DNA of 34,511 bases from an uncultured Erysipelotrichaceae bacterium (GTDB taxonomy: Bacteria > Bacillota_I > Bacilli_A > Erysipelotrichales > Erysipelotrichaceae), in contig CALVCT010000017.1 of the NCBI GenBank assembly GCA_944326055.1, positions 1 to 34,511 of the forward strand, in the 5' to 3' direction. A model generated the notes under the pieces. That model searched no databases, had not been told where the DNA came from, and saw only the letters and a list, made by a program, of their open reading frames with translations. The position numbers and the translations under genes were made by a program. This document shows, in pieces, positions 15,347 through 32,394 of the stretch. Each line of letters opens with the position of its first letter. Position 1 is the stretch's first letter.

Positions 15347-16762
15347 CTAGTGCAAACTTATAAGCAACGCATCTTGTCGCTCTTTAGCATTCTTCAGATC
15401 ATCAAAATCACCAAGATCTCTAAGATCGATGTGATCAGCAGTGATCGCATAGTGATCGAATTCGCTGAGTTTTGATGGATATATGCCCATTAATTGTCCT
15501 TTGATGCTGGAAGTGCGCAGATCTATGACTTTCTTTAAGGTCTCAAGTGCCTTTTTATGATCTTCATAAGAAGTGAAAGCACTTGGATCCTCTTTTACAT
15601 AAGGTGCTATCATACGTGAGATCTTTGCATATTTATAATCAAAAGTTCCACTAGAAAAATACTCATCAATAAGAACTGTTGCCTTCTCATACATCAAAGC
15701 TAAATATTCTTTCATCACTTCATGATATAGCGGTCTTTTTAACATCACGTCCCCCGTACATGGAGTATCGATAGGATAGTTGATAAGAACGTTTGCATCT
15801 CTTATCGGATCGCTCATCCCAAGAGCATATGTTCCAAAAGCTAGATTATAGTCCCAAGGCAAGATCGAAAGCTTTCCATCTTCTTCATACAAATAATAAT
15901 TGTGTCCCGTATAGCCAACATAACTGTCCCAATTGAGAAGGAAGTTTGAGACAGCAAAATAAGATACGACTTCATCGATATCGATGACCGATGCAAGATC
16001 TTGACCACTAGATAAGACTTCTAACGCTTTGATGACTCTTACTTTATCAGACTTATCGACAGCGACCTTGGCATGATCAAAGATATTAGGGTAACTTTCG
16101 ATATCGTCATCTTTATAGATCAAATAAAGATCTCGATTGTCGTCATCGATATAACGATAATCAGGTTTGTATAGTGCTCCATGATCGTTTCCATAATTAC
16201 GCCTCAAAAAAGCTTCTTCCATTTCTTCGATCGCTAGATACAGACCAAAATCCTGACCATTGATCTTAAGCCAGACGTAACTTACAAGCGGTGTTGGCAC
16301 ACTCAACATATCGAACATATCATAGGCTAGATAAGTCTTCATATAACTGTTATCTTGAAAAGAAGCATCTAGTGAGAACTTATCAAGGCCATGATAATCA
16401 CGCATCTCATAGTGATCGAACTCGATCTTGAAACTATAACGTATAAGTCCATACTCAGAAATAAGCCTGCGTGAGTTATTCCCTTTGATCCTAAAACCGA
16501 CATCAGATATCTTCTCGCCATCGATCGTGATATCAGCTCTCAAATATTCCTCTTCACCTGCCTTTAGATAACTAACGATATCATCAACTTCGATATCGAT
16601 CTCATGAACATATGAATCATCAAAGAGCTTAGAAACATATAACGGTTCTCTGATAGCACTCTTGATCCCAAAGTCTTCGGCATGAAAAAGGATGGCCACG
16701 ATCATTAACATCACTACAACACATAAGATGACAAGTTTATCAAAATACTTAGAGCGAAGCAT
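15347..16762 (-). CDS. CotH-family kinase, membrane anchored
   Basis: 471-residue protein with one N-terminal membrane segment (residues about 9-27) and a large domain expected outside the membrane. The CotH fold is recognised from EIDIEVDDIVSYLKAGEEEY, FRIKGNNSRRL, RDYHGLDKFSLDASFQDNSY and the C-terminal NWDSYVGYTGHNYYLY, then LSILPWDYNLAFG. In the B. subtilis spore-coat enzyme similar Asp residues bind metal and ATP. The family phosphorylates secreted proteins, so this may modify surface proteins, including the repeat lipoprotein of the same operon (inference). It starts one base after the DUF4956 stop and ends the operon. Confidence 0.88.
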   Translation of the reverse strand: MLRSKYFDKLVILCVVVMLMIVAILFHAEDFGIKSAIREPLYVSKLFDDSYVHEIDIEVDDIVSYLKAGEEEYLRADITIDGEKISDVGFRIKGNNSRRLISEYGLIRYSFKIEFDHYEMRDYHGLDKFSLDASFQDNSYMKTYLAYDMFDMLSVPTPLVSYVWLKINGQDFGLYLAIEEMEEAFLRRNYGNDHGALYKPDYRYIDDDNRDLYLIYKDDDIESYPNIFDHAKVAVDKSDKVRVIKALEVLSSGQDLASVIDIDEVVSYFAVSNFLLNWDSYVGYTGHNYYLYEEDGKLSILPWDYNLAFGTYALGMSDPIRDANVLINYPIDTPCTGDVMLKRPLYHEVMKEYLALMYEKATVLIDEYFSSGTFDYKYAKISRMIAPYVKEDPSAFTSYEDHKKALETLKKVIDLRTSSIKGQLMGIYPSKLSEFDHYAITADHIDLRDLGDFDDLKNAKERQDALLISLH

Positions 16763-16763
16763 C

Positions 16764-17435
16764 CTAACCTAGATACTCTCCATTATAAGATATAAGAGCA
16801 ACGTGCTCGATCGCCTCATAAGCATCAAGTGTATCGATAAAAGAGACATCTTCATCTTTGAGCCTAACTTCCATGTCAAGTTCTGTGATACCAGAGGAGA
16901 TAGATTTATTTTTGAGAGAAGAGCGTTTGGTATGTGCAGCTATTAGATCGATGATCTCTTTCTCTTTGGTGTTATCTTTAAGATGGATGACCAATAGATA
17001 AGGACGATCGATGCTTTTGCGTCTTGACATCACCACCAACATGAGACCGATGAAAAGACTGCCAAAGACAGCCAGCGGTATAAGGCCAGCGGCTAAGACG
17101 ATACCGATCGCAATAGACCAAAAAAGAAAGACGATATCTAGTGGTTCCTTGATAGCAGATCGAAAGCGGACGATCGAAAGTGCACCGACCATACCTAAAG
17201 AGAGTACGACATTTGAGACGACAGTCATGATAAGCATCGTTGTGACAAGGGTCATTCCAATAAGTGAGGTGCCAAAGCTCGCTGAATACATGATACCTGT
17301 ATAAGTCTTTTGATAGACATAATAGACAAAGATCCCAAGAAGTAGAGCTAAGATCAAAGCTACAGCCATGTCGAAAAATGAGATCGATGTCAAATTCTCA
17401 ATGAATGATGAGCGAAATATCTCCTGAAATGTCAT
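16764..17435 (-). CDS. DUF4956 membrane protein
   Basis: 223-residue protein with about four membrane helices: FFDMAVALILALLLGIFVYY, GMTLVTTMLIMTVVSNVVLS, PLDIVFLFWSIAIGIVLAAG and VFGSLFIGLMLVVMS. The conserved loop LGMVGALSIVRFRSAIKEPL is the hallmark of DUF4956. A cytoplasmic alpha/beta tail of about 80 residues follows (LLVIHLKDN..). Function is unknown. In many Firmicutes it accompanies a VTC-domain protein and CotH (from memory), as here, with an ATGA overlap to the VTC gene. It may form the membrane part of a complex that uses the VTC product. Confidence 0.85.
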   Translation of the reverse strand: MTFQEIFRSSFIENLTSISFFDMAVALILALLLGIFVYYVYQKTYTGIMYSASFGTSLIGMTLVTTMLIMTVVSNVVLSLGMVGALSIVRFRSAIKEPLDIVFLFWSIAIGIVLAAGLIPLAVFGSLFIGLMLVVMSRRKSIDRPYLLVIHLKDNTKEKEIIDLIAAHTKRSSLKNKSISSGITELDMEVRLKDEDVSFIDTLDAYEAIEHVALISYNGEYLG

Positions 17436-18112
17436 GATCGGCCTCCTATTCTACTGATCGCATATTTACTATATGATGTCCTTCTTGTATCGATGTCTAT
17501 CAGTGCTCTTATCGTATCTGGAAGATATCTGTCATATTTGATCTCTAAGATCGTATTCTCTTCAAGTTGCATATAGTTTGCATCCTGATCTAAGAAATCT
17601 TTGATCTCAAAGATCTTTGAGATATCGCTATCGAAGGTTATGCGCACATTACCATAAGGATAGACAAACGCTTCACGCTCATACCTTACGGCACTGACGG
17701 GCGCAAGTTTATTTTTAAGACGCACATAGAATTCTTTTTTAAGTTCTTCTTTACTTTTTAAAAGAAAATCGATATCACCTTCGATGATCTTCTCTACTTC
17801 ATCTTTTGAAAGTTTGACACTATCTTTTGCGCTAAGATCACCACGTTTATACTTCTTCTCTAGCTTGATGAAGCTTAGATCGTCACCATAATAGCGGATA
17901 CGAAACTTTTCTTTATAATTAAGACCTTCCGTCTTAGCCCTATATGCCCTATCATACTCATCATCAAAATATAAGCTCGTCACTAAGTAGCGTCCATTCT
18001 TACCGTGGCTGTCAAAAGGCAAAACTTTTCTAAGACGCAAGCGAAGCACCAAGTCTTCAGCTTTCGTGACTTGGTGCTTTATCTCGTGCCTTATCGGAAC
18101 TTTCTTAATCAT
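17432..18112 (-). CDS. VTC-domain protein, polyphosphate-polymerase-like
   Basis: 226-residue cytoplasmic tunnel-fold protein related to the catalytic domain of yeast Vtc4. Conserved basic and acidic tunnel residues are visible: PIRHEIKHQV, VTSLYFDDEYDRAYRAK, EKFRIRYYG, FIKLEKKYKRGDLSAKDSV, VRYEREAFVY, VRITFDSD and ILEIKYDRYLP. It may synthesise polyphosphate or bind another triphosphate; bacterial members are poorly characterised. The frame is open another 51 codons upstream, but that stretch is the other-frame reading of the lipoprotein repeats, so the ATG at 18112 (MIKKVPIRHEIK) is taken. It overlaps the lipoprotein stop by 8 bases, implying translational coupling. Confidence 0.85.
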   Translation of the reverse strand: MIKKVPIRHEIKHQVTKAEDLVLRLRLRKVLPFDSHGKNGRYLVTSLYFDDEYDRAYRAKTEGLNYKEKFRIRYYGDDLSFIKLEKKYKRGDLSAKDSVKLSKDEVEKIIEGDIDFLLKSKEELKKEFYVRLKNKLAPVSAVRYEREAFVYPYGNVRITFDSDISKIFEIKDFLDQDANYMQLEENTILEIKYDRYLPDTIRALIDIDTRRTSYSKYAISRIGGRS

Positions 18113-18893
18113 CGTAGGCACTATCGCCATAGTTACTATTACTATAATCTGACGAACTATAGTTCGATGTACCATAGTTGGTATAGCTATAATCTGTGAC
18201 ACCATCGTTATTTGGTCCATAGTCTGTATCATCGTAATCTGTGACACCATCGTTATTTGGGCCATAGTCTGTGTTATCGTAATCCGTCACTCCATCATTA
18301 TTTGGACCATAGTCTGTATCATCGTAATCCGTGACACCATCGTTATTTGGACCATAATCTGTATCGTCATAGTCAGTAAAGCCATCGCTATCTGGTCCAT
18401 AATCTGTATCGACATAACTTGTAATGCCATAATCAGTCTCATTTCTAAGATCGATCTGATTTTGCCACTTATGTGTATCGATGGTCACTTTGACTTCACT
18501 TACGACATCATCGACAAAAGATGTATATGGAATGACTGAACCTTCTTCGATCTCAATTATGACTTGACGTTTTTCGCCTTCGACTTCCTCGACAAGATAG
18601 CCTGCTTCACCGATCTTCGTCAATAATTCCGCAACAACAGCTCTCGTTTCTTTTCCAACATATGAACTGGTATCTGAAGCGATCGCTTTTCCATCGTCAT
18701 TAACACCTTTGACATCGATGACATTGCCATTTTCATCATAAGATATCGCGATCTCAGGATTGACTCTTAAAGTCAAGACGCCAGTACTAGCTAGAGTATT
18801 CTGTGTCTCTGTAGTAGATGCGCTGTTTGTTGAGCAGCCCACTAAGGTCATAACCATAGCCAGCATGATCATTAGGGTATATAACTTTTTCAT
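18105..18893 (-). CDS. Lipoprotein with an RsgI-like extracytoplasmic domain and acidic tandem repeats
   Basis: 262 residues. The signal peptide ends in a lipobox with Cys20 (LAMVMTLVGC). Residues about 38-150 resemble the extracytoplasmic domain of RsgI anti-sigma factors: LTLRVNPEIAISYDENGNVI, then GVNDDGKA, matching INPSVKIDVNRDDDVIGISG and LNDDGAY in the neighbouring RsgI, including the Asn-Pro pair (residues 45-46) at the position where RsgI proteins self-cleave. The tail is five 15-residue repeats of the type TDYDDTDYGPNNDGV and a Ser/Asn/Tyr-rich end. AAGGAGG precedes the ATG. No cytoplasmic sigma-binding part exists, so it may be a decoy, co-sensor or surface substrate. It probably has its own SigI-type promoter. 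Confidence 0.85.
   Translation of the reverse strand: MKKLYTLMIMLAMVMTLVGCSTNSASTTETQNTLASTGVLTLRVNPEIAISYDENGNVIDVKGVNDDGKAIASDTSSYVGKETRAVVAELLTKIGEAGYLVEEVEGEKRQVIIEIEEGSVIPYTSFVDDVVSEVKVTIDTHKWQNQIDLRNETDYGITSYVDTDYGPDSDGFTDYDDTDYGPNNDGVTDYDDTDYGPNNDGVTDYDNTDYGPNNDGVTDYDDTDYGPNNDGVTDYSYTNYGTSNYSSSDYSNSNYGDSAYDD
18193..18417 (-). repeat. Five tandem 45-base coding repeats
   Basis: Units start at 18193, 18238, 18283, 18328 and 18373. Each encodes a 15-residue block with TDY..TDYGP..DG. The unit at 18373-18417, nearest the N terminus, is most diverged. A length of 45 keeps the frame, so copy number can change without breaking the gene. Confidence 0.9.
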
Positions 18894-18933
18894 TTGATTC
18901 CTCCTTGGCTCTTTTGCCTTTACACTTATAGCT

Positions 18934-18961
18934 TACGTAGCTGGTTTTCTATTTTTGGGGT
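18934..18961 (-). promoter_or_regulatory. SigI-type promoter of the lipoprotein-VTC-DUF4956-CotH operon
   Basis: On the minus strand ACCCCA (18961-18956), 18 bases, CGTA (18937-18934). The A of the box is the last base of the rsgI stop codon. It resembles the ACCCC/CGWA elements described for SigI promoters of Bacillus and Clostridium; the fit of the spacing was not checked. Confidence 0.6.
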
Positions 18962-19749
18962 CAGTCATCATAATTTGAGCTATTTTCTTCATCATATTGT
19001 GAATCAGCGTAATTCGATGAAGCGTCGCTGTACTCGTACTCACTATCTTTAGTGGTATCTGGACTGATCGTTGGCGCTGGCGTGACTTGAGGTGTGGTCG
19101 CATCGTCTATATCCCCATAATCGTCATCATCATAAGAACTGTCACTTTCGATCACGATCTCTGGCATGATGATCTCTTCATGACCACTTTGGTCAGTTAT
19201 CGTGATCTTTACTTCTAGATCATCTTTGAGATGGATAAGCGTATCGTCGATAGCTTCACGTTTTTCTTTGATCCATGTAGCATCGTTAGAAGCAAATTCG
19301 ATAGCTATCGTCTGACCTTGATAGAGATATCCAAGATCGATCGCTCTATCCATCAGTTCATCAAAGACGATATCGATATCCTTGCCATCATAGTCATAAC
19401 CATCGATGAGGTATGCACCATCATCATTGAGTCCACTGATCCCTATCACATCATCATCTCTATTCACATCGATCTTGACGCTAGGATTGATCCTAAAAAG
19501 AAGTGAATCCGTCACGATACTATCCATATAGATATCAAAAGCGAAGAAAAAGATAAATACAGCAAAGACAGCGATCAATGGATAGATCGATCTCAGACCC
19601 TTCTTCTTTGGAGCAGCTTCTTTGATAAGCTCGATAGACTCTACTTCCATGCCTACTTGGTAGTCTTTATTGTAGATCTTGATGAAAGTGCCATCTTGAT
19701 CTAAAGCGATCGCATATAGCGTATGTACTTCCAAGATCAAATATCTCAT
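18961..19749 (-). CDS. rsgI: Anti-sigma-I factor RsgI
   Basis: 262-residue single-pass membrane protein that holds SigI inactive. Residues 1-45 form the cytoplasmic RsgI N-terminal domain (MRYLILEVHTLYAIALDQDG). A membrane helix spans about 55-73 (YPLIAVFAVFIFFFAFDIY). The outer domain begins LLFRINPSVKIDVNRDDD, with Asn88-Pro89 at the site where RsgI proteins undergo autoproteolysis, followed by GLNDDGAY. The C terminus is a flexible Asp/Ser/Tyr/Pro tail with no carbohydrate-binding module, unlike the clostridial cellulosome RsgIs. The ATG at 19749 is chosen because AAAGGAGGT lies nine bases before it and it overlaps the sigI stop (ATGA). Confidence 0.9.
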   Translation of the reverse strand: MRYLILEVHTLYAIALDQDGTFIKIYNKDYQVGMEVESIELIKEAAPKKKGLRSIYPLIAVFAVFIFFFAFDIYMDSIVTDSLLFRINPSVKIDVNRDDDVIGISGLNDDGAYLIDGYDYDGKDIDIVFDELMDRAIDLGYLYQGQTIAIEFASNDATWIKEKREAIDDTLIHLKDDLEVKITITDQSGHEEIIMPEIVIESDSSYDDDDYGDIDDATTPQVTPAPTISPDTTKDSEYEYSDASSNYADSQYDEENSSNYDD

Positions 19750-20462
19750 ACTGCCGTACCTCCTTTGAGGACGCGCCAAAGATGACCGCGAATGATCTCA
19801 TAACCATTAGTCAATATCACCAACATCGTTACAAGATACTTACGATGACGCTCTAAGACTTTACGCTCATTTTTATCTAAAGTCAGTCTTTGGATCGGTA
19901 GCTTCTTACTTATAAGCAGATCATCTAAGATCGAGGGATCTTCTTTAGCTTTAGCGATCATCTTTTGGATCAGGGCTTTTGTGCGCTCTTGCTTAGGCGA
20001 AGATGTCGTAAGGTCTTTAAAAGAAACACCAAAAGTCTCTAAGACTTTACTTAATTCTGAGATCTCAGCTTGCGTAGCTAATAGCCGCATATGCTCATCT
20101 GTCTTATCACGCCCATCAGTGATCATATCGATAAGTTGATCACCTTCTTCATTCTCTTTATCGAGAGATATATGATCTTTGTGCCTTGCTTCCTTACGAT
20201 CATGATCGATAAGTCGGCTGCGGATGATCATTTGAGCATAGTGCAAGAAAGTACCCCTATCCCTATCGTATGACAAGATCGCTTCATGAAAGGCGATCAT
20301 TGCGATCTGAAGTTCATCGCTGCTTTCATTTGTATAGGTGCCAGTATATTTACTGACTTCTGACTTGATAAAAGGAAGATACTCGCGTATCAATACATCA
20401 GCAGCTTCAAGGTCATATCTAGCTTGTGATACTTTTTTTAAGATCTGGTGCTCGTCTTGCAA
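19746..20462 (-). CDS. sigI: RNA polymerase sigma factor SigI
   Basis: 238-residue sigma-70-type factor of the SigI group. Region 2 includes SDELQIAMIAFHEAILSYDRDRGTF and HYAQMIIRSRLIDHDRKEAR. The SigI-specific C-terminal domain has FGVSFKDLTTSSPKQERT and LPIQRLTLDKNERKVLERHRKYL, which act as the promoter-binding domain instead of a classic region 4. The start is a TTG at 20462 with GGAGG eight bases before it. The TGA overlaps the rsgI ATG, the standard sigI-rsgI layout. It probably activates its own promoter and that of the downstream lipoprotein operon once RsgI is cleaved. Confidence 0.93.
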   Translation of the reverse strand: MQDEHQILKKVSQARYDLEAADVLIREYLPFIKSEVSKYTGTYTNESSDELQIAMIAFHEAILSYDRDRGTFLHYAQMIIRSRLIDHDRKEARHKDHISLDKENEEGDQLIDMITDGRDKTDEHMRLLATQAEISELSKVLETFGVSFKDLTTSSPKQERTKALIQKMIAKAKEDPSILDDLLISKKLPIQRLTLDKNERKVLERHRKYLVTMLVILTNGYEIIRGHLWRVLKGGTAV

Positions 20463-20485
20463 GTCTTGGTCCTCCTAGTATAGAG

Positions 20486-20514
20486 TTCGTAAGGCTTTAT
20501 ATTAAAACTGGGGT
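20486..20514 (-). promoter_or_regulatory. SigI-type autoregulatory promoter of sigI-rsgI
   Basis: On the minus strand ACCCCA (20514-20509), 19 bases, CGAA (20489-20486), followed by a short leader and GGAGG. It matches the reported ACCCCC/CGAA type of SigI elements; a housekeeping promoter may also lie here. Confidence 0.6.
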
Positions 20515-28534: not shown

Positions 28535-29404
28535 CTATGCAGCAAAGCCCAAGAGAGCAAAGATCAGTGCCAATATAAAGATGACAACGACAAGTTTCAA
28601 AGAAGAAACGTTCTTCTTGTACAAGAGAGCTAAGATAAGTGTTAGTACAAGTGGAGCAAGTCCAGGAATGATGTTGTCGAGTTCTTGTTGGATATTGAGC
28701 ACATAATCACCGATAGCGATATTCGTCGTTAGGTTAAATCCTACCCATGATGGAACAAGAGCACCAAGAGCTGTCATACCTAAGATAGAAGCAGCTTCCA
28801 TGACTCTATCGAGGATATTCGATTTGTTCATATCACGAATGATCTTGATACCATTGCGATATGAGTAGAAATAACCATAGTAACAGATACCGACATAGTA
28901 GACATTCATAAGAATGACCATGAGTATCGCACCTATTGGTGATCCTGCAACAGCGAATCCTGCACATAGAGCACCAAAGATAGCTGTTAAAGTAGCATCG
29001 ATAGAATCACCGATACCAGCAAGAGGACCCATGAGCGAAGCCTTCATCGTATTGACTGATTCTTTTAGTTCATCCTTTTCAGGACCATCAGCCATATTAG
29101 CGATAGCTTCTTCTTGCGCACACGAGATACCTAAGTTGATACCCATCCATTGTGGAGTAGTATTATAGAATGCCATATGACGCTTAGCAGCATCGATCTG
29201 GTCTTCTTTGTTTGGATAGAGTTTCTTGATGACTTTCTTCATCGCTGTGAAGTAAGTCAATGTCTGGAAACGTTCATAGTTGATAGAACACATTGGGAAG
29301 AGTGTGAAACGCCAGAAACAGCTATTCAACTCTTTGTTCGTTAGTTTATGTTCTTCCCTTACTTCAGGAGTTTGTTCGACCATTTCGATATTCCTCTCTG
29401 ACAT
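28535..29404 (-). CDS. PTS mannose-family IID component
   Basis: 289-residue membrane protein. The N-terminal region LTNKELNSCFWRFTLFPMCS and the NTTPQWMGINLGISCAQEEA segment, followed by SLMGPLAGIGDSIDATLTA, are diagnostic of IID. Membrane segments follow, ending with LVVVIFILALIFALLGF. With IIC it forms the channel. It overlaps the IIC stop. Confidence 0.95.
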   Translation of the reverse strand: MSERNIEMVEQTPEVREEHKLTNKELNSCFWRFTLFPMCSINYERFQTLTYFTAMKKVIKKLYPNKEDQIDAAKRHMAFYNTTPQWMGINLGISCAQEEAIANMADGPEKDELKESVNTMKASLMGPLAGIGDSIDATLTAIFGALCAGFAVAGSPIGAILMVILMNVYYVGICYYGYFYSYRNGIKIIRDMNKSNILDRVMEAASILGMTALGALVPSWVGFNLTTNIAIGDYVLNIQQELDNIIPGLAPLVLTLILALLYKKNVSSLKLVVVIFILALIFALLGFAA

Positions 29405-30165
29405 TATAGTGCTCCTCCTTTCTTCTTTTTAGCTACTGGTACATAGAAGTATACCGTTAGAGCAAATGCTGCACCTAAGAGTGCGATCGCTAGTAATGAT
29501 CCTCCAAATACAGCTGCCATAACAAAGCCGATGATGAAGAATGGGATATACTTTGGCTTATACATCAAAGCAAACAGCATACCGAATCCTAACGCTGGTA
29601 GCATACCTGTCGCCATCGTCAACCAGTTCTGTACCCAAGCAGGCATATTGTCGTTGATCATTTGGACGAATGGTGAACCAAAGTAGATACATAAGAAGAT
29701 AGGGATTGCCTTGGTGATAAAGAAGATCGCTGAACCGACAAACTGTAGACGAGACATCTTGTCTAGTTCACCCTTCTCAGCATAACCATCGGCAATGTGC
29801 ATCAAGCTCGAGTTGAGCGTCCAAGCAAGCATCTGGTCTAACTGACCTAAAACAGCTACTGGAACCGCAAGAGCGATAGCACTTTCCATACTGATCTCAG
29901 TCATGATACATAGTGCAACACTGACTGTAGTAGCAGTAGTCTTGTTTACAGGAATAGCGGCACCAACAGCGACGACACCCATGTAGACAAGTTGCAAGGT
30001 ACCACCAATGACGATACCCGTTCCTGGATCACCTAATAATAGACCGACGATAGCACCAGCTACTACAGGTTGATTCAGACCCATGTTGTACATACCGTAA
30101 CCGAGCCAGTCGATCACAGAACATACAAGTGTGACATAAAGCACATACCCTAGATCAAAACCCAT
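29404..30165 (-). CDS. PTS mannose-family IIC component
   Basis: 253-residue membrane protein of the AgaC/AgaW/SorA type. GLNQPVVAGAIVGLLLGDPG, then GGTLQLVYMGVVAVGAAIPV is the conserved IIC signature, followed by several further helices to a Lys-rich C terminus (VAKKKKGGA). Substrate specificity cannot be read directly; the operon suggests an amino sugar such as N-acetylmannosamine, N-acetylglucosamine or a derivative. Confidence 0.95.
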   Translation of the reverse strand: MGFDLGYVLYVTLVCSVIDWLGYGMYNMGLNQPVVAGAIVGLLLGDPGTGIVIGGTLQLVYMGVVAVGAAIPVNKTTATTVSVALCIMTEISMESAIALAVPVAVLGQLDQMLAWTLNSSLMHIADGYAEKGELDKMSRLQFVGSAIFFITKAIPIFLCIYFGSPFVQMINDNMPAWVQNWLTMATGMLPALGFGMLFALMYKPKYIPFFIIGFVMAAVFGGSLLAIALLGAAFALTVYFYVPVAKKKKGGAL

Positions 30166-30177
30166 ATTTATCCTCCT

Positions 30178-30891
30178 TTAGTTTTGATTGAAACTATTTA
30201 TCGCATTAACGAATCTACGTGTTATGGCAAACGGTGATGTGATAGCTGTACCAACAGTGATGACATCAGCACCGTATTGGTAAGCATTTCTTGCATCATC
30301 GATCGTCCAGATCCGTCCTTCAGCATTGATGAATGCATTAGGGAACTTAGCTCTAATATCTTTAATGACATCAAGGTCGACTCCCTTTGCATATTTATCT
30401 TTTGTATCTTCTGTATAACCTGATAATGTCGTTGAGATGATATCAGCACCTTGTGCCATACACATCTCTGCATCATGTAATGTAGCTAGATCAGCCATGA
30501 CTAATTGATCAGGATATTTCTTCTTGATCTCACCGATCAGTTCATAAGCATAGCGGCCTTCACAATTCTTACGACAAGTGCCATCGACAGCGATGATCTC
30601 ACAACCTAGTTCGACCAATCTGTCCACTTCTTTCATCGTTGGCGTAATATAGACATCGCATCCTGGAGTAACGACTTTCCATATGCCGACCATCGGTAGA
30701 TCTGGATACTTACTTTTGACAAGCTCGATGTTTGGTGGAGTATTGACTCTGATACCTACACCGCCACCTACGACAGCACAATCGACCATCTGAAGCATAT
30801 CTTCTGGTCGGTAGAAAGGATTTCCATCGTCCTTATTGCCTTGACAAGAAACGATCAAATGCCCTCTAATTTTCTCTAAAACACTATTCAT
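30178..30891 (-). CDS. nanE: N-acetylmannosamine-6-phosphate 2-epimerase
   Basis: 237-residue TIM-barrel enzyme converting N-acetylmannosamine 6-phosphate to N-acetylglucosamine 6-phosphate. Signatures are LIVSCQGNKDDGNPFYRPED at the N terminus, GGGVGIRVNTPPNIE, VGIWKVVTPGCDVYITPT, IIAVDGT, MADLATLHDAEMC, INAEGRIWTIDDARNAYQYG and VTVGTAITSP. No NanA lyase or NanK kinase is present, so the phosphorylated substrate is supplied by the PTS rather than by sialic acid breakdown through NanK (inference). It lies 12 bases before the IIC gene. Confidence 0.94.
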   Translation of the reverse strand: MNSVLEKIRGHLIVSCQGNKDDGNPFYRPEDMLQMVDCAVVGGGVGIRVNTPPNIELVKSKYPDLPMVGIWKVVTPGCDVYITPTMKEVDRLVELGCEIIAVDGTCRKNCEGRYAYELIGEIKKKYPDQLVMADLATLHDAEMCMAQGADIISTTLSGYTEDTKDKYAKGVDLDVIKDIRAKFPNAFINAEGRIWTIDDARNAYQYGADVITVGTAITSPFAITRRFVNAINSFNQN

Positions 30892-30902
30892 GATTTCCTC
30901 CT

Positions 30903-31631
30903 TTAGATACGTGATCTATAGTGTTCAAATCGTTTTTGATCATTGACTGTATCACCTGTGATAAGTGGTACATCATCTCCATCTGTAGCTAATCTGTGCA
31001 CTGTTTTCACTGTTAGGCTCTGTGAGATGAAGTTATTGCATATCGAAGAAACAGAGCAGACATTAGCTATACCACCTGTCTCAAGTAAAGCATCACCATG
31101 AGGCCCACAATTATCGATCACAACATCACCAAACATGTACAGTTTCTTACCACTAGGATGTCTTGAAGCTTCAGCGTTTGTATGTTTCATACTCGTAACG
31201 ATCACGACCTTGTGTCCATGCCTTTTCGCTTCGATCGCTAGATCGATCACTAAACCATTGATGCCCGAGTTTGAAATGATCATGAAGACATCTTGCGGTC
31301 TGATGTCATATAGCTCATAGAATCTTTGTGCAAGATCACTTCTTCTTTCAAAGTCATTATCTTTATCAGTGAATTCTTTAAGTGTGATGACACCTTTTGT
31401 GACAAAGTCAGTTAGTCTCATCATATGTATAGGGATTAAGTTACCTAACTTACCGCTCATCTCGATTCCCATGCCGATCGAATGACCAGTACCAAAGATG
31501 TGGACAACTCCATCATTTTTGATGCATTCAGCAAATAATTCACTAGCCTTATCGATATTCTCATCTTGTGATGTAGATAATTCTTTAAGCAAAGCGACGA
31601 TACGCTCTTTGAAGACATTCTTATCGACCAT
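30903..31631 (-). CDS. SIS-domain sugar isomerase-like protein, intact site
   Basis: 242 residues. A SIS domain of the UPF0309-like group: the sugar-phosphate loop HIFGTGHSIGMGIEMSGKLG and the second loop FMIISNSGINGLVIDLAIEA with Ser-Asn-Ser-Gly. GPHGDALLETGGIANVCSVS is typical of the group. It probably binds or isomerises a phospho-amino-sugar. Its start shares a base with the stop of a paralogous SIS gene, and nanE follows 11 bases later. Confidence 0.9.
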   Translation of the reverse strand: MVDKNVFKERIVALLKELSTSQDENIDKASELFAECIKNDGVVHIFGTGHSIGMGIEMSGKLGNLIPIHMMRLTDFVTKGVITLKEFTDKDNDFERRSDLAQRFYELYDIRPQDVFMIISNSGINGLVIDLAIEAKRHGHKVVIVTSMKHTNAEASRHPSGKKLYMFGDVVIDNCGPHGDALLETGGIANVCSVSSICNNFISQSLTVKTVHRLATDGDDVPLITGDTVNDQKRFEHYRSRI

Positions 31632-32368
31632 TATCGAACTCTCCCTTCATAAGCATCTGTCAAAGCATTATTGTGTACGTCAGCTCCTTTTACATTCGCA
31701 GATAAGAGCACTGGAGCTTCAATGCCATTTTCGACATATAGTTTATAGATCTCAGCTTCAAGACACTGAGCTAAAACATTAGCAACAGTACCAAAGAGTT
31801 GGCCAACACCACGACCATCGACTTCAGCTAAAATATCGGGTTCATCTAAAGTCGTCATGATCGCTAGATCAGCAATATCTAAAAGTCTCTTACCACTATC
31901 ATCGATAGCTGGCAAGACATCATAAGAATTCTTATTAACTAATGCGATGACCTTCTGACCCTTACTTTTAGCATATAGCGCCATCTTGACGATTAGTGGC
32001 TCATTGCCTTTTTGTGATACTAAGACATAAGCATCACGGTCATCGAGTTTGTAGATAGAAAGTAGATCTTCTAAGATACTTGCATCTTGATATACTGACA
32101 TATCATCGATCTTTGACTGTTCGATCATGCCACGAGTGAGAAGATCAGATACTTTGATACCATGGAATGGTGAAAGTCCACCAGCGCGAAAGAAAAGTTC
32201 ATTGACGAACTCTTCACCGGGTCCGACACCGAACAATTGAACTATTCCGCCTTTTTGGATCGTAGAAAATAGAGACTGTGCTACTTCTGACAAGAGGTCA
32301 GAATTAGCACTGAAGTTGTCATCGATCGCTTTGATAAAGCGATCGGCAATAAACACCTCGCTATTCAT
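31631..32368 (-). CDS. SIS-domain protein, degenerate paralogue, first gene of the operon
   Basis: 245 residues aligned by eye over the whole length with the next gene: QLFGVGPGEEFVNELFFRAG corresponds to HIFGTGHSIG.., KVSDLLTRGMIEQSK to RLTDFVTKGVITLKE, and GVGQLFGTVANVLAQCLEAE to the C-terminal loop. The second ligand loop reads VLVSQKGNEPLIVK, lacking the S-x-S-G of active SIS proteins. It may be a non-catalytic partner or a sensor. GGGGAGAG precedes the ATG. It is the first gene after the poly-G promoter. Confidence 0.85.
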   Translation of the reverse strand: MNSEVFIADRFIKAIDDNFSANSDLLSEVAQSLFSTIQKGGIVQLFGVGPGEEFVNELFFRAGGLSPFHGIKVSDLLTRGMIEQSKIDDMSVYQDASILEDLLSIYKLDDRDAYVLVSQKGNEPLIVKMALYAKSKGQKVIALVNKNSYDVLPAIDDSGKRLLDIADLAIMTTLDEPDILAEVDGRGVGQLFGTVANVLAQCLEAEIYKLYVENGIEAPVLLSANVKGADVHNNALTDAYEGRVR

Positions 32369-32394
32369 ATTCTCTCCCCTCTGTTTATAAAGAA

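Follow-up and report, generated by a model that had tools for sequence, protein, structure and literature searches.

A six-gene SigI/RsgI locus encoding a SEAL lipoprotein, VTC, DUF4956 and CotH proteins as a candidate self-regulating surface-modification circuit

The anti-sigma factors of the RsgI family undergo self-cleavage followed by intramembrane proteolysis (PMC12203970), and published SigI promoters are described with a C-rich −35 element and CGWA at −10 (PMC4711584). CotH phosphorylates coat proteins in Bacillus subtilis (PMC7821199). CotH has also been reported, in a trio with VTC-type and DUF4956 proteins, as an accessory of Pel polysaccharide loci (PMC7112168), and the authors of a 2025 paper failed to find this trio outside Pel loci (PMC12345266). 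Here we analysed a contig stretch of 34,511 nucleotides from an uncultured Erysipelotrichaceae bacterium (CALVCT010000017.1; this whole stretch is called the window below). On its minus strand, at 15347-20514, lie genes encoding SigI, RsgI, a lipoprotein with a SEAL domain, a VTC-domain protein, a DUF4956 membrane protein and a CotH kinase-fold protein, in this order of transcription. On balance, the six genes probably form a self-contained, self-regulating surface-modification circuit, in which SigI/RsgI is combined with a CotH module, CotH modifies protein tails, and VTC and DUF4956 act as a phosphate-polymer pair. At the sequence level, the analysis showed an operon, two predicted promoters, SEAL cleavage sites, a tail motif associated with CotH, and the expected catalytic residues.

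An initial annotation, made from the letters of the window alone, had placed six such genes on one strand, and domain searches bore out all of them. The sigI gene (19746..20462) has a TTG start and encodes 238 amino acids; it matched NCBIfam NF006178 (E 8e-49) and TIGR02895 (E 1.5e-46), with scores under the strict equivalog cut-offs of both models. Its stop codon is overlapped by the ATG start of rsgI (18961..19749), the overlap being 4 nt. Further downstream, the lipoprotein gene (18105..18893) and the VTC gene (17432..18112) overlap by 8 nt, the VTC and DUF4956 genes (the latter at 16764..17435) overlap by 4 nt, and 1 nt spaces the DUF4956 gene from the CotH gene (15347..16762). The genes had been described as mostly overlapping, which held, as overlap or near-touch, at most junctions; left uninterpreted was the sole separated junction, where 67 nt between rsgI and the lipoprotein gene contain a second predicted SigI promoter. 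An open reading frame extending the VTC gene to 18265 was rejected, as its extra part consists of the lipoprotein repeats read through and the true start lies near 18112.

The common form of the SigI promoter, CCCC-N19-CGTA, was identified by gapped 4-mer counting and was present upstream of sigI in 46/62 relatives, compared to 0.22 in shuffles. It superseded an ACCCC...CGAA-only pattern, which had scattered matches in the window's own genome and occurred in just 1/66 upstream regions. The putative promoter P1 (ACCCC-N20-CGAA-CTCTA; 20481..20514, minus strand) lies upstream of sigI, shows a pattern conserved in relatives, and has position 20514, the outer end of the described stretch, as its first base. 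The putative promoter P2 (ACCCC-N19-CGTA-AGCTA; 18929..18961, minus strand) lies in the rsgI-lipoprotein gap and scored 26 bits against a profile whose training set was limited to sigI promoters. This weight matrix, built solely from sites upstream of sigI and then applied to other genes, detected a further copy upstream of the lipoprotein gene in 60/67 loci; its matches elsewhere amounted to 0/62 for rsgI, 2/94 for VTC, 0/110 for DUF4956, 0/91 for CotH and 0/757 for other genes. P2 was retained where sigI-rsgI is divergently transcribed (L193, L206) and where the gene order has changed (L191, L202), consistent with the earlier proposal that the second gene set is wired to SigI. The prediction that two near-identical SigI promoters drive two units is thereby strong, a consensus match not being in itself proof of transcription.

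Using a strict version of the promoter pattern, 23 matches were obtained in 13 whole genomes of the family, all 23 of them within the six-gene locus (a reversed control pattern gave 14 matches in the same genomes). P2 is one of two matches in the entire genome from which the window derives. In 11 more distant genomes, 11/13 matches appeared within the locus, as judged by contig positions. Since the two promoters account for every match in the 13 genomes, SigI appears to be dedicated to its own two transcripts, sigI-rsgI and lipoprotein-VTC-DUF4956-CotH. The second promoter, the confinement of the regulon to the locus and the tail motif described below had all been missed by the initial annotation. 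As a separate observation, insertions were located exactly between both transcription units in two loci, a likely transposase in one (L208:5251-6483) and a likely toxin-antitoxin pair in the other (L141:5306-6479).

Because it recurs across many families, the six-gene arrangement is not due to chance. Genomes of 84,980 bacterial and archaeal species were scanned for this CotH subfamily; at least 588 stretches encoded a relative, and the best 80 loci were kept. Within this sample, which is conditional on the CotH subfamily, 53 loci had at least 4.5 kb upstream. SigI, RsgI and two SEAL proteins were present in 53/53 of these, and VTC and DUF4956 as well in 52/53. The co-occurrence of SigI/RsgI with VTC-DUF4956-CotH expected from the window was therefore found in other genomes: the pair and the set stand together rather than only separately, judging from this synteny and from P2 in 60/67 loci. 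Hosts include Oscillospiraceae, Lachnospiraceae, Erysipelotrichaceae, Anaerovoracaceae and Tissierellia. Among 60 relatives, the gene order recurred both within the window's genus and across further genera of its family, and the nearest named relative of the window's CotH belonged to an uncultured Erysipelotrichaceae bacterium (67%). These loci show that the trio is common outside Pel loci, contradicting the failure of the 2025 paper to find any; no pel genes were found among the scanned genes around the six-gene locus.

Two further samples were not conditional on CotH. In 324 genomes of the window's phylum, eight clear SigI genes were detected (at least 135 bits; the next scored 43), 7/8 of which lie within approximately 3 kb of a VTC gene. 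A draw of 291 genomes from the class to which a Faecalibacterium belongs gave 80 clostridial SigI loci, one per genome, and the CotH set was present in 5/80 and absent from 75/80. Taken together, the two samples mark the locus as a specialised branch of the SigI systems, which prevails in the window's phylum and accounts for a minority of those in the Clostridia. In another family of the order, two loci (L079:6535-12054, L092:241-5911) encode a short extracytoplasmic function (ECF)-like sigma factor and a SEAL anti-sigma factor in place of SigI/RsgI, and keep the tailed SEAL lipoprotein, VTC, DUF4956 and CotH together despite this replacement. The initial CotH seed profiles were too narrow and missed divergent CotH proteins such as that of L074, and Pfam searches were added. 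The latter locus (L074:7416-14854), from the window's genus, contains VTC-DUF4956-CotH followed by genes of 685, 348 and 468 amino acids, without SigI, in an order resembling Clostridium perfringens NELoc-2. In L103:4212-9037, RsgI-SigI adjoins two DUF4956 genes and one VTC gene; no CotH was found at this locus, nor by Pfam anywhere in its genome.

RsgI and the lipoprotein both possess a SEAL-type domain with the Asn-Pro site of self-cleaving anti-sigma factors (INP in RsgI, VNP in the lipoprotein). RsgI consists of the Pfam domains RsgI_N and RsgI_M, with a transmembrane segment at residues 55-73 and an acidic disordered tail. No carbohydrate-binding or enzyme module was found among Pfam domains at its C-terminus, which is a disordered-looking repeat tail. 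The lipoprotein has a lipobox (LVGC) and 15-residue repeats. Its RsgI-type outer domain, as previously annotated, was supported by a match to RsgI_M (E 3e-14) and by alignment of the globular part with RsgI SEAL domains (PDB 8t9n, E 9e-13). An AlphaFold2 (AF2) model of the lipoprotein superposed on 8t9n, the SEAL domain of B. subtilis RsgI, with a TM-score of 0.65. The cleaved RsgI chains in the PDB begin with the proline that is aligned with the Asn-Pro sites of the lipoprotein and RsgI. The autoproteolysis mechanism is taken here from the statements of other papers and from these PDB entries. Elsewhere (L122:8799-9972, also L115, L116 and L124), loci without CotH encode a SEAL anti-sigma protein whose C-terminus is rich in His, adjoined by an ECF-like sigma factor in L115 and L122; this may be a separate, possibly metal-related SEAL system.

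The VTC-domain protein (PF09359, E 9e-38) belongs to the triphosphate-tunnel family. It has no transmembrane segment and is predicted to be cytosolic. The N-terminal two thirds align with yeast Vtc4 (PDB). Its catalytic residues were invariant or nearly so in 36 sequences, with R8, E10, K12, R71, R73, E85, K87, K96, R146, R157, E190, K192, S215 and K216 invariant in 18 VTC sequences. The protein is a single domain of 226 amino acids, in which neither an SPX domain nor the VTC1-type transmembrane domain of the eukaryotic complex was found. Nearly every VTC gene among the 60 relatives adjoins a DUF4956 gene, and the two were adjacent in 108/110 cases. DUF4956 (PF16316, E 5e-11) comprises transmembrane helices and a C-terminal ACT/MgtC-like domain; in its AF2 model (pLDDT 83), the membrane helices are followed by a domain resembling that of MgtC. 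An invariant R-x-R is present, and the membrane part holds two invariant arginines (R-F-R), at a helix end according to the alignment. A Foldseek search with DUF4956 matched only the C-terminal ACT/MgtC-like domain, with nothing at E <= 0.001 and nothing for the membrane part, and we therefore propose no channel fold. The membrane partner of VTC, DUF4956, is a protein of its own and belongs to a different family from the eukaryotic VTC1-type transmembrane domain. In L184:293-1555, VTC and DUF4956 share one open frame in which a membrane helix is missing at the join; as this may be a decayed copy instead of a fusion, it was set aside as evidence.

The VTC-DUF4956 pair might neither make nor export polyphosphate, and instead be a regulatory or nucleotide-handling pair, composed of some other triphosphate-tunnel enzyme and an MgtC-like regulator, with CotH acting alone. 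We consider this doubtful, albeit a serious alternative. It agrees with the MgtC-like nature of DUF4956 and with the many activities of triphosphate-tunnel enzymes (PMC4641920). It also agrees with mutants of S. intermedius, in which deletion of the VTC gene had no reported effect and deletion of the neighbouring DUF4956 or CotH gene altered the Pel level and aggregation (PMC12345266), which is the main doubt on the polymer step. However, the residues matching the Vtc4 tunnel are conserved throughout the VTC set, and the near-constant adjacency of VTC and DUF4956 and the two invariant arginines at the end of a membrane helix also weigh against this reading.

The window's CotH (PF08757, E 4e-56) has a single N-terminal transmembrane helix (residues 10-28) as an anchor, with the catalytic domain predicted outside. 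It aligned with 5jd9 across N-x-D and PWDY, the Asp residues of which were invariant in 11 sequences. From positive-inside reasoning, we infer that the CotH kinase domain and the tails of RsgI and the lipoprotein are outside and VTC inside. These tails, at 18964..19149 in rsgI (SNYADSQYDEENSSNYDD) and at 18108..18437 in the lipoprotein gene (repeats, DTDYGPNNDGVTDYD), are long, acidic C-terminal regions of low complexity dense in the motif [S/T]-x-Y. Ser or Thr stood two residues before Tyr (Y-2) for 81% of 506 tail tyrosines in 61 linked RsgI proteins and for 76% of 1447 tyrosines in 70 other linked SEAL proteins, nearly all the lipoprotein, as opposed to 17% of 238 tyrosines in unlinked SEAL proteins; approximately 16-20% would be expected by chance from composition. 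Among approximately 7,080 open frames in 139 loci, dense motif runs were confined to SEAL proteins, to seven fragments with the appearance of lipoproteins truncated at contig ends and, in weak form, to three CotH proteins. Lipoproteins with at least 15 motifs occurred in 5/5 clostridial SigI loci with CotH and 0/75 without; the SEAL proteins of those 75 loci had a maximum of four motifs. The commonest tail unit is DTDYGPNNDGVTDYN, and variants such as NTNYG, GDSGYES and DDSDYQSS retain only the [S/T]-x-Y core. In B. subtilis, the CotB phosphopeptide pSLKpSSDYQpSSK contains S-D-Y inside the repeat region phosphorylated by CotH, with the mapped phosphoserines at Y-3 and Y+2, not Y-2 (PMC7821199).

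The tails could alternatively be disordered spacers that bind calcium or span the wall and sense its integrity, tracking CotH through block inheritance, with CotH modifying surface polysaccharide or other secreted proteins. The commonest repeat (GPNNDGVTDYNDTDY) indeed resembles acidic calcium-binding repeats, as seen in its unit GPNNDGVTDY, and disordered protein regions are reportedly needed for wall homeostasis in B. subtilis, going by the title of a paper cited in the context of RsgI. The related VTC-DUF4956-CotH set is moreover an accessory of Pel polysaccharide loci, where its mutants change the Pel level (PMC7112168, PMC12345266). On the other hand, many tails keep [S/T]-x-Y without the DG loop (NTNYGNTNYG, GDSGYESGDSGYDD, SDYDDSDYQSSDY), and the constant feature is therefore the motif, not a calcium loop. 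No polysaccharide synthase lies within the operon, and the genes downstream of CotH are variable. Calcium-binding tails were judged unlikely and ranked second to tails modified by CotH.

In the circuit that we favour, RsgI would hold SigI at the membrane until an envelope signal pulls apart the self-cleaved SEAL domain and frees SigI, which would then transcribe sigI-rsgI and lipoprotein-VTC-DUF4956-CotH from P1 and P2. Membrane-anchored CotH may phosphorylate or otherwise modify the [S/T]-x-Y repeats of the lipoprotein and RsgI, as suggested by their co-occurrence. VTC in the cytosol and DUF4956 in the membrane would work as a pair, producing a phosphate polymer and perhaps transferring it through the membrane. 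Since the tail of RsgI matches that of the putative substrate, SigI could be subject to feedback from the modification state. In addition to the S. intermedius mutants, the CotB phosphosites and the calcium-like repeats, several points weigh against this proposal. The co-occurrence of tails and CotH is a correlation; the loci share descent, hence their counts are non-independent; we found no published assay in which a bacterial VTC protein produced polyphosphate, nor any expression, phosphoproteomic or biochemical data for a circuit member; and we know of no ATP source outside the membrane. A more detailed scheme, in which VTC makes polyphosphate, DUF4956 exports it, CotH draws on this polymer, or on an ATP-independent donor formed from it, to phosphorylate the [S/T]-x-Y tails of the lipoprotein and RsgI, and RsgI reports the modification state to SigI, seems rather improbable. 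That the six genes are mere neighbours, with SigI acting on different genes, as it does in cellulosome bacteria, and the CotH set expressed constitutively, is hardly credible. In its favour, SigI has many extracellular-enzyme targets in cellulolytic clostridia (PMC4711584) and 75/80 random clostridial SigI loci are missing the CotH set, but this reading was rejected as contradicted in silico by P2 in 60/67 loci versus 0/757 other genes, by the two promoters being every match in 13 genomes, and by synteny kept across many families.

The observation made in the initial annotation is thus confirmed and its interpretation partly supported. An unexplained trio of VTC, DUF4956 and CotH is now tied, in many gut Firmicutes, to a sigma/anti-sigma switch dedicated to it and to a defined sequence as candidate substrate. 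Three questions become testable with it: the product of bacterial VTC, the phosphate donor of an outside kinase, and the role of CotH beyond spore coats. The tail common to the anti-sigma factor and the putative substrate points to a feedback design which, as far as we found, is undescribed.

The source genome is an assembly of 1.38 Mb in 81 contigs. The locus is flanked by genes for an aminotransferase, an amino-acid ATP-binding cassette (ABC) transporter and a Schlafen-type helicase. Further along the window, 28535-32368 encodes a mannose-family phosphotransferase system component, a NanE epimerase and a SIS-domain protein. This is probably a cluster for the uptake of amino sugars and has no relation to the six-gene locus. 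A tRNA-Asp (anticodon ATC) called by ARAGORN at 32289-32370 overlaps the SIS-domain gene and is probably a false call.

A full-text search of open-licence papers yielded no description of this SigI-CotH circuit. The initial annotation had likewise known of no SigI system with such an output, which stands for the circuit as a whole, with two partial precedents to be added. In C. perfringens, a table published in 2010 (PMC2879425, Table 4) lists SigI, VTC, CotH, a cell-wall protein (probably RsgI) and a protein annotated as tubulin (presumably DUF4956) in one locus, NELoc-2. It differs in having two VTC-DUF4956 pairs, a resolvase and a glycosyltransferase; the SEAL lipoprotein is not listed and no SigI circuit is read into it there. 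In C. thermocellum, cseP (CotH-dockerin) similarly has a SigI6-dependent promoter, but it is cellulosomal and a single gene, with no VTC, DUF4956 or tails reported in the accessible part of the source (PMC4711584).

The locus resembles the SigI/RsgI systems of B. subtilis and of C. thermocellum, where they regulate the cellulosome, in SigI, RsgI_N, the SEAL domain with Asn-Pro, the CCCC/CGWA promoter and self-regulation. RsgI ends in an [S/T]-x-Y tail here and in a carbohydrate-binding module there, and the predicted regulon here is one locus, in which a CotH module is joined by a further SEAL protein with a lipid anchor. With the CotH spore-coat kinases of B. subtilis, which phosphorylate CotB and CotG (PMC7821199), it shares the CotH fold, the catalytic motifs and a candidate substrate that is likewise a disordered Ser/Thr-rich repeat. 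In contrast to these, which are under the sporulation sigma factor K, CotH is here membrane-anchored, predicted to be extracytoplasmic and under SigI, and its candidate substrate tails are acidic and rich in Tyr, whereas the spore-coat substrates are basic. The accessory genes of Pel loci, CotH-PPP-DUF4956(-DUF4832), bring the same three protein families together (PMC7112168, PMC12345266); here, no pel genes were found alongside, and the three families are instead tied to SigI/RsgI and a tailed SEAL lipoprotein.

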